This document shows, in pieces, positions 1 through 3,765 of a stretch of 64,000 bases of DNA (the stretch's first letter is position 1; each line of letters begins with the position of its first letter). The translations under genes and the position numbers were made by a program. Below the pieces are notes generated by a model, which ran no database searches, was not told the DNA's origin, and saw only the letters and a program-made list of their open reading frames with translations. This DNA is from Rhizobium sp. C4 (GTDB taxonomy: Bacteria > Pseudomonadota > Alphaproteobacteria > Rhizobiales > Rhizobiaceae). The DNA is taken from contig NZ_JAJNCX010000001.1 in the NCBI RefSeq assembly GCF_021026315.1, positions 186,001-250,000 on the forward strand, written 5' to 3'.

Positions 1-1389
1 GGTGATGATCTGCGCGACCTGCTCGCGGCCATATTTCTGCTGGACGTAGCGAATGACCTCTTCGCGGCGGTCCTGGCAGAAGTCGATATCAAAGTCGGGC
101 ATCGACACGCGTTCCGGATTGAGGAAGCGTTCGAAGAGCAGCGAGAAGCGGAGCGGATCAACGTCGGTGATCGTCAGCGCATAGGCAACGAGCGAGCCTG
201 CACCCGAACCGCGGCCGGGGCCGACCGGGATGTCGTGCTGCTTGGCCCATTTGATGAAGTCGGCAACGATCAGGAAGTAGCCCGGGAACTTCATGCGCTC
301 GATGATGCTCAACTCGAAGGCCAGCCGTTCATCATACTCCTCGCGGGTATATCCCGGCGCTATTCCCAGCGTTTCGATGCGCATTGCCAGGCCCTCGATC
401 GCCTGACGCTTCAACTCTTCCGACTCCGCACGCTCGGCCTCTTCCGCATCGTCCGTCGCGCCGGTGAAGCGTGGCAGGATCGGCTTGCGAGTGTTCAGCA
501 CGAACGAGCACCGCCTGGCGATCTCGACGGAATTCTGCAACGCCTCGGGAAGATCGGAAAACAGGGCGCACATTTCCGCGCGACTTTTCAGATAGTGGTC
601 CTGCGTCAGGCGGAAACGGTTGTCATCCGACACCATGGCGTTATGCGCCACCGCCATCAATGCATCATGGGCATCGAAATCCTTGCGCGCCGGGAAGAAG
701 GCCTCGTTGGTGGCAACCAGAGGCAGATCGTGCCGGTAGGCAAGATCGATCATCTTCTGCTCATGCCGGCGGCTATAGCCTTCCTGCCGCTGCAGCTCGA
801 CATAGAGGCGACCGGGAAAGAGCCGCGCCAGAGACAGCAGGCGCTGCGCCGCCAGCGCCGCATGGCCGTCCTTGACCGCCATGTCCACGGGACCGGTCGT
901 GGCTCCCGTCAGGGCAATCAGCCCATCCGTCCCATCCTCCAGCCAGGACAACAGCAGGTGCGCCGCCTGATTGCCCTCACCGTCGAGATAGGCACGACTG
1001 ACCAGTTCCATCAACCGATCATAGCCCCGCTCGGTCGAGGCCAGCAGGATCAGCGACGGCAATTTGGCGAGAGACGCCTGAACGCCGCCCCGCCGATCGT
1101 TCTCGGTGGCGTCCTGCATGTCGAGCGACATCTGGCAGCCGATGATCGGCTGAATCCCGTCCGAGATCGCCTTCTGGGCAAATTCCAGGGCAACAAAGAG
1201 ATTGTTGGTATCGGTAATCGCGATCGCCGGCTGCTCGTCAGATACGGCGATCGACAGGATTTTCTTGAGTGGCAGCGCCCCTTCGAGAAGCGAAAAGGCG
1301 GAATGCACACGCAGATGGACGAAACCGGGACCGGTCTGCGCTCCGGTAGCGCCTGTCGCTGCCGGCTTACCCGTTACCAGATCGCCCAT
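1..1389 (-). CDS. dnaE: DNA polymerase III alpha subunit, N-terminal part (gene runs off left edge)
   Basis: Replicative polymerase catalytic subunit; 463 codons are present and the frame is open to base 1, so the 3' part lies outside. The PHP domain opens at about residue 21 ([10 protein letters not shown]), the palm shows [10 protein letters not shown] near residue 390 and the catalytic aspartate motif PDFDIDFC near residue 430. The ATG at 1389 is chosen because it follows GGAGAA at good spacing and gives the usual short lead before the PHP domain. It looks like the main replicative DnaE1 rather than the mutagenic DnaE2, which would normally sit beside imuA/imuB. A small SOS-controlled gene lies 99 bases upstream in the same direction, so some transcription from that promoter could reach dnaE. 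Confidence 0.95.
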
Positions 1390-1488
1390 CGCCCATTCTC
1401 CATTTTCTGAATCAAGGTCGCATTGTGGGAAATCAGCAGGTGTCCTGTCCAGTCGTATCGCAGTGACAGGCCGAAGCGTCCCCTAAAT

Positions 1489-1575
1489 TCACATGGCCAT
1501 GAGGATGAGAGACATGGTGGCGACGAACATGGTCATGGATGCGAATGCAGCGAGATCACGAAGGATGTCAGTCAT
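1489..1575 (-). CDS. 28-residue SOS-regulated single-span membrane peptide
   Basis: A tiny gene starting MTDILRDLAAF and ending LILMAM. After a short charged N-terminus, residues 9-28 form one hydrophobic, methionine-rich segment, so the product should be a single-pass inner-membrane peptide. AGGAG sits six bases before the ATG. Directly upstream is a promoter overlaid by three GTTC repeats spaced by seven bases, the alphaproteobacterial LexA operator pattern. Size, topology and SOS control resemble SidA of Caulobacter, a 29-residue SOS-induced division inhibitor; no sequence homology is claimed. The coding call rests on ribosome site, operator and composition. Confidence 0.7.
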   Translation of the reverse strand: MTDILRDLAAFASMTMFVATMSLILMAM

Positions 1576-1596
1576 AGCGGGCTCCTTTCCACTTAT

Positions 1597-1622
1597 GTTC
1601 ACATAATGTTCTCATTACGTTC
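1597..1622 (-). promoter_or_regulatory. Triple LexA (SOS) operator
   Basis: On the plus strand GTTC occurs at 1597-1600, 1608-1611 and 1619-1622, each pair separated by exactly seven bases. GTTC-N7-GTTC is the known LexA recognition pattern of Rhizobiales and other alphaproteobacteria; here two boxes share the middle half-site. They cover the spacer, the -10 and the start region of the promoter below, so LexA would block polymerase. Confidence 0.8.
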
Positions 1623-1632
1623 ACAGAGTCAA
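1603..1632 (-). promoter_or_regulatory. Sigma-70 type promoter of the SOS peptide
   Basis: On the minus strand TTGACT (1632-1627) is followed after 18 bases by CATTAT (1608-1603). The predicted start falls just before the ribosome site of the 28-residue gene, and the three LexA half-sites lie inside and just downstream of this promoter. Confidence 0.55.
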
Positions 1633-1760
1633 GCACCCCTCCGAAAGATTCTCGGAAGTGTCTGAAATCAAAGCAAGACTCGGCCGCGCACCGCGGAGGT
1701 GCCCGTCCGAAAAGGCTCAGGGAGCGGAAGTGGGAAGGTTGGCGACCCTGGGCGTGGTTC

Positions 1761-2444
1761 TCAGAATTCGAGAACCCTGCCCTCGTCCAGCGTGATGCGG
1801 CGATCCATCTTCGAGGCGAGCTCGTGGTTATGGGTCGCGATCATGGCCGCAAGGCCGGACTGCCGGACGAGCGCCGTGAGCGCTTCGAAGACGTAGCCGG
1901 CGGTATCCGGATCGAGATTGCCGGTCGGCTCGTCGGCGAGCAGGATCTGCGGCGCGTTGGCGACCGCGCGCGCAATCGCCACGCGCTGCTGCTCACCGCC
2001 GGACAGTTCTGCCGGGCGATGGGTGCCGCGATGGCCGATACGCATGTAGGCCAGCAACTGCTCGGCGCGCTCTGAGGCGTCCTTGCGGGACAGGCCGGCA
2101 ATGAGCTGCGGCATCATGATATTCTCCAGCGCGCTGAATTCCGGCAGGAGATGATGGAACTGGTAGACGAAGCCGATCTCGGCACGGCGCACGGCGGTGC
2201 GTTCGTCATCGGACATTTCGGCGCAGGAATGGCCACTGACGATGACATCGCCTTCGCTTGGCCGCTCAAGCAGACCGGCAATGTGCAGAAGCGTCGACTT
2301 GCCGGTGCCGGAGGGCGCGACAAGCGCGACGGTCTCGCCGCTTCTCAGCGTGAAATTGGCGCCCTTGAGGATCGACAGTTCCTGATCGCCCTGCCCGTAG
2401 CTGCGCCGGATGTTCTTCAGTTCCAGGACTGGTTGCTGCTTCAT
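1761..2444 (-). CDS. lolD: Lipoprotein-releasing ABC transporter ATPase LolD
   Basis: Cytoplasmic ATPase that powers extraction of lipoproteins from the inner membrane for transfer to LolA. 227 residues, the normal length. Walker [10 protein letters not shown] lies at residues 43-51 (first residue Ala where Gly is usual), the signature [14 protein letters not shown] near 145 and Walker [12 protein letters not shown] near 167. It follows the LolC/E permease gene by about 16 bases and forms a proS-lolE-lolD cluster. Other MacB-type ATPases look similar, but the adjoining LolC/E permease decides the call. Confidence 0.93.
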
Positions 2445-2460
2445 CGGGTTGGGAGCCTTC

Positions 2461-3765
2461 TTATTCGTATCTCAGCGCCTGGACAGGGTCCAGCTTGGCG
2501 GCGCGCCAGGCCGGGAAAATCGTGGCGAGGAAGGACAGCGCCAGCGCCATGACGAGGACGGAGAGCGTCTCGCCAAGGTTCATCTCGGCCGGCAGCTGGC
2601 TCAGGAAATAGAGTTCCGGATTGAAGAGCGTCGTCCCCGAGAGCCAGGAGAAGAACTGCCGGATGCGCTCCACATTCAGGCACACCACGACGCCGAGGAT
2701 CAGGCCAGCAAATGTGCCCGTCGTGCCGATCGCGGCGCCTGTCATGAAGAAGATGCGCATGACCGCCCCGGACGTCGCGCCCATCGTGCGCAGGATGGCG
2801 ATGTCGTGTCCCTTGTCCTTCACCAGCATGATCAGGCCGGAGATGATGTTGAGGGCTGCGACCAGCACGATCAGCGTCAGGATCATGAACATGACGTTCC
2901 GCTCGACCTGAAGGGCGGAGAAGAAGGTCGAATTGCGCTGTCTCCAGTCGGTGATAAAGATCTGTCGACCGGCAGCCTTTTCGATCGGCTCGCGCAGTTC
3001 GTCGATCTTGTCCGGGTTGTTCACGAAGAGTTCGATCGACTGGACGATGCCGTCGGCGTTGAAATAGAGCTGTGCCTGCTCCAGCGGCATGAAGATGATG
3101 CTGGAATCATATTCCGACATGCCGATCTCGAAGACGGCCGAGACCTTGTAGGACTTGACGCGCGGATTGACACCCATCGGCGTCACGTCACCTTCCGGTG
3201 ATATCAGTGTCACCGTGTCGCCAACGCCCACTCCCAATGATGCGGCGAGCCGCGATCCGATGGCGATCCCGTCGCCGGCGGCAAAGCCCACGAGGTCACC
3301 GGATTTGATATTGTCGGCGACATATTTAAGCTTGGTGATGTCTTCGGCGCGAATGCCGCGCACAAGGGCGCCGGAGCCGGCGCCGTTCTTGCCAGACGCC
3401 AGCGTCTGCCCCTCGACCAGCGGAATGGCCATCTTCACGCCGGGAACGGCGGAGAATTTCTGGGCGAGTTCATTATAGTTGTTGAGTGGCGTGTCGACGG
3501 GCTGGATGATCATGTGCCCGTTGACGCCGAGGATGCGCGAGATCAGCTCGGTGCGGAAGCCGTTCATCACCGCCATGACGATGATGAGCGTCGCCACACC
3601 CAGCATGATGCCCACGAAGGAAAAGCCGGCAATGACCGAAATGAACGCTTCCTTGCGCCGGGCGCGCAGATAGCGCCAGGCCACCATGCGTTCGAAGGCG
3701 GAAAACGGCCCCGTTTTCGTGATCCGGTTTGCCGTTGCGCTTGCGCCGCTGTCGCCTTTCGCCAT
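2461..3765 (-). CDS. lolE: Lipoprotein-releasing ABC transporter permease LolC/LolE family
   Basis: Inner-membrane permease of the Lol system, 434 residues. The sequence shows one N-terminal membrane segment after [18 protein letters not shown], a large periplasmic MacB-like domain, and three C-terminal membrane segments starting near residue 290. Only one permease gene is present next to lolD, as is common in alphaproteobacteria, where a single LolC/E-type protein may act as a homodimer; the letter E is therefore nominal. The stop lies just before lolD and the start lies 20 bases after proS, so all three are likely co-transcribed. Confidence 0.9.

Follow-up and report, generated by a model that had tools for sequence, protein, structure and literature searches.

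A conserved 28-residue membrane peptide encoded under a LexA-type operator upstream of dnaE in Rhizobiaceae, a putative divergent homolog of the Caulobacter division inhibitor SidA

What, if anything, is encoded in the short interval ahead of dnaE in Rhizobium sp. C4, and how might it relate to the SOS response of this bacterium? The window analyzed here is a 64,000-nucleotide stretch of this genome (contig NZ_JAJNCX010000001.1, positions 186,001 to 250,000), for which a preliminary description had proposed, at 1489-1632, an SOS-controlled gene for a peptide similar to SidA of Caulobacter in architecture, with no claim of sequence similarity. These coordinates are correct, and the gene, whose strand had been left unstated, is on the minus strand, with the start ATG at 1575-1573, the stop codon at 1491-1489 and the ribosome site GGAAAGGAG immediately 5' of the ATG (Table 1). 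The encoded peptide contains a single hydrophobic span that begins at about residue 8 (best 19-residue mean Kyte-Doolittle hydropathy of 1.97); the sequence and the hydropathy thus bear out the description of a 28-codon gene with a good ribosome site and one hydrophobic span. When the 84-nt frame is compared among five genomes of the genus, 1, 0 and 5 sites vary at codon positions 1, 2 and 3, respectively. The peptide matches no family in Pfam or NCBIfam at E ≤ 10, and an Rfam scan of positions 1-3000 of the window yielded one sub-threshold match, located elsewhere than the peptide locus; a novel antisense RNA might escape such a scan. The gap between the peptide gene and dnaE is 99 nt. On the other side, the frames 1761-2444 and 2461-3765, which we take from their sequence to be lolD and a lolC-type permease gene, have homologs in relatives and correspond to annotated ABC transporter genes in Sinorhizobium meliloti.

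Table 1. Features at and around the peptide gene (positions are those of the window)
Feature	Coordinates	Strand	Basis
28-codon gene, SidA-like peptide MTDILRDLAAFASMTMFVATMSLILMAM	1489..1575 (stop included)	-	sequence, conservation, third-position bias
Ribosome-binding site GGAAAGGAGC	1581..1590	-	sequence
Triple LexA half-site GTTC-N7-GTTC-N7-GTTC (two overlapping LexA boxes)	1597..1622	+	sequence, genome uniqueness
Promoter-like TTGACT-18-CATTAT, overlain by half-sites	1603..1632	-	promoter scan
5' part of dnaE (replicative polymerase III alpha), the gene following the peptide gene	1..1389	-	sequence, homologous neighbors
Presumed lolD, next gene upstream	1761..2444	-	frame; name from sequence
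Presumed lolC-type permease gene	2461-3765		frame; name from sequence

The region upstream of the peptide gene has the organization of an SOS operator. Three GTTC half-sites on the plus strand (1597-1600, 1608-1611 and 1619-1622; GTTCACATAATGTTCTCATTACGTTC) are spaced by seven bases and overlie the promoter-like site at 1632-1603, exactly as originally noted. The exact triple pattern occurs once in the 5.2-Mb genome, at this position, and the reversed control pattern does not occur at all. The pattern of two half-sites is found 139 times, compared to 89 for its reversed control, and a lone box is accordingly weak evidence, so that the weight falls on the triple arrangement and its conservation. 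The lexA gene of this genome has a box directly upstream (G000:C1:127499-127513), which is consistent with GTTC-N7-GTTC being its LexA motif; the same motif has been published for LexA of Caulobacter (PMC12700426; PMC9578287). The 500-bp region contains two promoter-like sites, against a mean of 0.3 in shuffled sequences. The second of these (TGGACA-18-CACAAT, 1451-1422, minus strand) is located in the gap between the peptide gene and dnaE and might be a separate dnaE promoter.

Is this small frame conserved? With the 28 residues as the query, 22 of 61 genomes had a match at E ≤ 10, and the best E-values ranged from 3e-11 to 0.75. A profile (A1) was built from 17 peptides representing 21 loci (L009-L029, with near-identical rows and L020 omitted), in which M1, D7, S13 and F17 are invariant. 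At E ≤ 1, this profile matches 280 of the 297 genomes of the family, the weak matches having been only partly checked, and at E ≤ 1e-3, about 220 by a hand count. The 17 family genomes that lack a match include six small ones, of 1.0-1.6 Mb (G011, G072, G104, G119, G195 and G209), and eleven of ordinary size; the peptide may have been lost upon genome reduction. In the order search, matches at E ≤ 1 were obtained in 150 of 297 genomes; many of these are no better than expected by chance. The residues of the membrane span are kept across orders. Among the order loci fetched and retained from outside the family (L063-L066 and L068-L080), a perfect box is present within 100 nt upstream in 14 of 17.

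The operator accompanies the frame in most loci. For the whole order set of 64 loci, a perfect box (GAAC-N7-GAAC) is found within 100 nt before the matched start in 58, compared to 4 of 1792 control windows of 100 nt taken from elsewhere in these loci; these loci are the best matches from related genomes, neither a random sample nor independent draws. The set excludes L030, L031, L067 (short) and five duplicate loci; if L030 and L031 are scored as lacking the box, the figure becomes 58/66. Given that the profile used to find the loci was built from protein only, the box is independent evidence. In 38 of the 58 loci with a box, a third half-site (at least 3 of 4 bases) lies 22 bases after the first, whereas other offsets give 0-10 (offsets 16-21 and 23-31), 13 (offset 32) and 20 (offset 33), which indicates that the triple arrangement recurs among the loci. 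Furthermore, 54 of the 64 loci have TTGAC 20-100 nt upstream, a motif seen in 76 of 2240 control windows. Thus, the search of the 28 residues together with the operator across relatives, which had been put forward as a check, finds the frame and the operator kept together, the opposite of an operator conserved without its frame. The expectation that such a gene would be missed by annotation also holds, the peptide being unannotated and yet conserved across the family and the order. The computational evidence therefore gives good support to a membrane micro-protein that is conserved, has escaped annotation and lies under a LexA-type operator.

The position of the gene on the chromosome is conserved as well. 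In 54 of the 64 order loci, dnaE is located downstream on the same strand within 1.5 kb, and lolD is found upstream within 1.5 kb in 43. In the remaining ten, dnaE is absent from this 1.5-kb range; five of these (L184-L188), when extended to 15.7-18 kb (about 7-9 kb on each side), show no dnaE match, and all five dnaE-less stretches contain the peptide and perfect boxes. Given these five loci, the tie to dnaE is not an obligate one, as it would be for a leader or an upstream frame.

Does the likeness to SidA extend beyond architecture? Four named Caulobacter genomes were reached through RsaA, and dnaE was located in them using the dnaE protein of the window as the query. In all four, a frame of 29 residues, of one sequence or a close variant of it, sits immediately 5' of dnaE and has a LexA box 64 nt ahead of it; in one (L118), the frame is preceded by lolC-lolD, and in the others (L115-L117) the divergent upstream frame looks like a nucleoside hydrolase gene. 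The peptide of Caulobacter sp. Root343 scores 74 bits, over a cut-off of 35, with the curated model NF033228 ('cell division inhibitor SidA'). The published locus tags of sidA (CCNA_02004; PMC10769358), the nucleoside hydrolase (CCNA_02005; PMC3667746) and dnaE (CC1926; PMC1839093), as given in these sources, agree with the identification of the peptide in this slot as SidA. A search of the Caulobacter order gave matches in 34 of 120 genomes at E ≤ 10. From 30 loci fetched, a Caulobacterales set of 24 was retained, the six dropped (L138, L142 and L145-L148) having neither a box nor dnaE. Within this set, dnaE is downstream in 22 of 24 loci under a strict position rule, lolD is upstream in 13 of 24, and a perfect box is present in 20 of 24 (20 of 30 on all fetched loci), compared to 0 of 672 control windows.

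Three kinds of comparison address the peptides themselves. First, hhalign aligned the rhizobial and Caulobacterales alignments without gaps from Met1, with E-values of 2e-5 (probability of only 77%) and 9.5e-6 (83%). Second, the ungapped register yields a total of 12.9, compared to 4.8 for the best shifted register and to a mean of -14.3 for shuffled columns, with 12 of 200000 shuffles reaching 12.9; when columns were shuffled within the two halves only, 197 of 200000 did so (z = 4.5 for the free permutation and 3.5 within blocks). This test employed 25 of the 31 rows of A2, the order-only alignment, and 15 of the 16 rows of A3, with other N-terminal lengths omitted. Third, an HMM derived from Caulobacterales peptides alone was used to rank all frames of each locus (about 76). 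The slot frame came first in 52 of 69 other loci, where 0.9 would be expected, and in 47 of 64 (less than one expected) without the five loci that came from the search with a SidA-containing profile, whereas 20 column-shuffled models placed it first in 1-14 of the 69 loci. The slot frame ranked below first in 17 of the 69, including the locus of the window itself, where it was third of 77. The similarity to SidA fades past approximately residue 18. The profile-profile, permutation and rank tests together suggest, with moderate strength, homology to SidA beyond shared composition. The architectural likeness originally described is thus upheld, and the slot, the register and the profile similarity carry it further than had been claimed.

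The peptide nevertheless does not belong to the curated SidA family. It has no match to NF033228 even at E ≤ 10, and seven order members tested singly (of 17) have none either. Genome-wide, NF033228 exceeds its cut-off of 35 bits in 0 of the 297 order genomes; 89 of the 297 contain matches at E ≤ 0.5, and none of the listed places in the order was seen to coincide with a known slot in a comparison by eye. In a mixed alignment (A4), 10 of 27 members hit the model at E ≤ 0.1; this alignment contains ten Caulobacterales rows. One Caulobacterales slot member scores 20.5 bits, which suggests that NF033228 is a narrow model. In view of the lack of a match to NF033228, we call the peptide of the window a putative divergent positional homolog of SidA, sharing its slot and standing outside the curated family, rather than a family member.

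The slot appears to extend further. With the order-only profile A2, matches of the class search outside the order are weak (best E-value 0.0047), and include G903:C68, which was recognized later. With A4, in which Caulobacterales rows are added, 33 of 385 genomes of the class match at E ≤ 0.1. In two families outside the order, f55 (L154 and L157) and f61 (L153 and L172), the peptide is accompanied by a LexA box and a downstream dnaE, so that the slot is found beyond both the order of the window and the Caulobacter order. Another f55 locus (L156) has the box and dnaE, and the matched frame, as read, lacks the peptide. Among the part of the other class matches that was inspected, outside f55, f61 and the Caulobacter order, neither a box nor dnaE was seen.

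Variant copies also exist. A second SidA-like frame of 32 residues, MRDLLHDIASFVAVSTFIATFAVWAGYLAEKV, with no LexA box, is present at L189:7438-7536 (G020:C27, the same as L031), in a prophage-like region upstream of matches to PHROG exonuclease VIII and a RecT-like annealing protein; it is perhaps a phage-borne copy, and a comparison with phage records returned no match for it. In L030 (G046, approximately 981-1593), the span forms the C-terminus of a longer frame of about 114 residues that possibly starts just past the LexA box; with dnaE downstream and the box 288 nt upstream, this is a possible N-terminally extended version. L190 (CP090106.1) and L191 (NZ_CP069303.1) are records of 3.7 and 4.6 Mb labeled as plasmids; L190 carries dnaE and a gene for proline--tRNA ligase and has the look of a mislabeled chromosome.

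What could the function of this peptide be? In the published account, SidA is a 29-residue inner-membrane protein that acts on FtsW (PMC4211646), is derepressed when LexA is lost and blocks division through FtsW (PMC4211646; PMC12700426). Residues A31, F145 and A246 of Caulobacter FtsW are described as suppressor sites of SidA, A31 being SidA-specific (PMC4211646). In Caulobacter sp. Root343, FtsW carries A, F and A at these positions, matching the published sites, and the alignment reads V, F and A for FtsW of the genome of the window. From the published action of SidA and these FtsW residues, we infer a division-blocking role as the best reading: the peptide, once induced in the SOS response, would most likely inhibit division by acting on septal synthesis of the FtsW type, and the gene quite probably codes for an SOS checkpoint peptide of the SidA type that has diverged in sequence. 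In an undamaged cell, LexA bound to the two overlapping boxes (GTTC-N7-GTTC) that span the promoter would keep the gene silent. Upon DNA damage, RecA would become active, LexA would be cleaved and the 28-residue peptide would be made and enter the inner membrane via its single helix. There, it would hold the septal wall-synthesis complex FtsW/FtsI/FtsN inactive, most likely by binding FtsW within the membrane, such that the cell would not divide over damaged DNA.

Size, single span and LexA-type operator would also fit a TisB- or DinQ-like peptide, induced by SOS, that depolarizes the membrane and would slow growth via a membrane leak; DinQ has been described as an SOS peptide with one span and toxic activity (PMC3567139). 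We consider this unlikely: most loci share one chromosomal slot, the gene is widespread in the family, and the invariant D7, S13 and F17, together with the register common to SidA, suggest a specific partner.

The frame could also be an upstream frame or leader that tunes dnaE, with the SOS promoter reading into dnaE and the frame mattering for polymerase expression only. Consistent with such a role, dnaE is on the same strand at 54 of the 64 loci, no terminator-like site was found between 1300 and 1800 of the window, and in S. meliloti, a novel small frame, sORF25, has been reported in the 5'-UTR of dnaE1 by a ribosome-profiling study, according to which frames of this sort could be uORFs (PMC10117765). 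The S. meliloti Ak57 genome encodes MADFVRDLAAFASMSLFIVSISVIALGL between the gene of an ABC transporter ATPase and dnaE, at a distance of 150 nt from the latter and with two overlapping LexA boxes; no gene is listed at this place in a gene table that is stated to be incomplete. Perhaps, sORF25 is the S. meliloti copy of the same frame. The span residues conserved across orders, however, speak against a leader, and so do the ten loci with no dnaE within 1.5 kb, the retention of the peptide and boxes in L184-L188 and the promoter-like site ahead of dnaE at 1451-1422, so that control of dnaE appears distinctly improbable as the sole role of the frame. Finally, a SidA homolog retargeted in these polarly growing bacteria (PMC8546619; PMC7327166), for example to the polar growth machinery instead of septal FtsW, would accord with the fading of similarity beyond about residue 18 and the difference at FtsW A31, but is highly improbable given that F145 and A246 of FtsW are conserved, even if perhaps for the sake of FtsW itself.

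Under the SidA-type checkpoint reading, the peptide, present in most genomes of the family, is a concrete candidate for the factor that restrains division in DNA-damaged cells of rhizobia and related bacteria. It also offers an alternative interpretation of the ribosome-profiled frame sORF25 (PMC10117765). We regard it as fairly likely that SidA is no peculiarity of Caulobacter and represents an SOS checkpoint on division ancestral to much of the Alphaproteobacteria, residing in the lolD-dnaE slot and unannotated in rhizobia, with the L189 copy perhaps acquired by a phage. The kind of gene is known; within the literature covered, what looks new is the rhizobial branch, how widely it occurs in the family and that it has been overlooked. 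Among the open-licence papers listed, none was seen to connect SidA with rhizobia, and a prior mention is possible. The many natural variants could be used to map how a 28-residue helix might stop the septal machinery.

Several known systems share features with this peptide. TisB of Escherichia coli is a short SOS-controlled membrane peptide as well; TisB and DinQ are type I toxins with antisense RNA. YneA and SosA of Firmicutes are larger proteins. These two are SOS-induced membrane inhibitors of late division, and YneA interacts with FtsW (PMC13396833); DinQ of E. coli is another short SOS-controlled membrane peptide (PMC3567139). DidA of Caulobacter is a damage-induced, single-span inhibitor of the FtsW/I/N complex but differs in its length of 71 residues, its independence of SOS and its binding to FtsN (PMC4211646). 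With respect to SidA of Caulobacter, the C-terminal half is divergent and W19, invariant in Caulobacterales, is absent from the peptide of the window, whereas the two have in common one span within 28 and 29 residues, respectively, GTTC-N7-GTTC boxes, a place directly upstream of dnaE, an aligned register with R6, an acidic residue at position 7, S13 and F17, and a nearly identical hydropathy (1.97 for the peptide of the window and 1.92 for SidA), with membrane insertion predicted.
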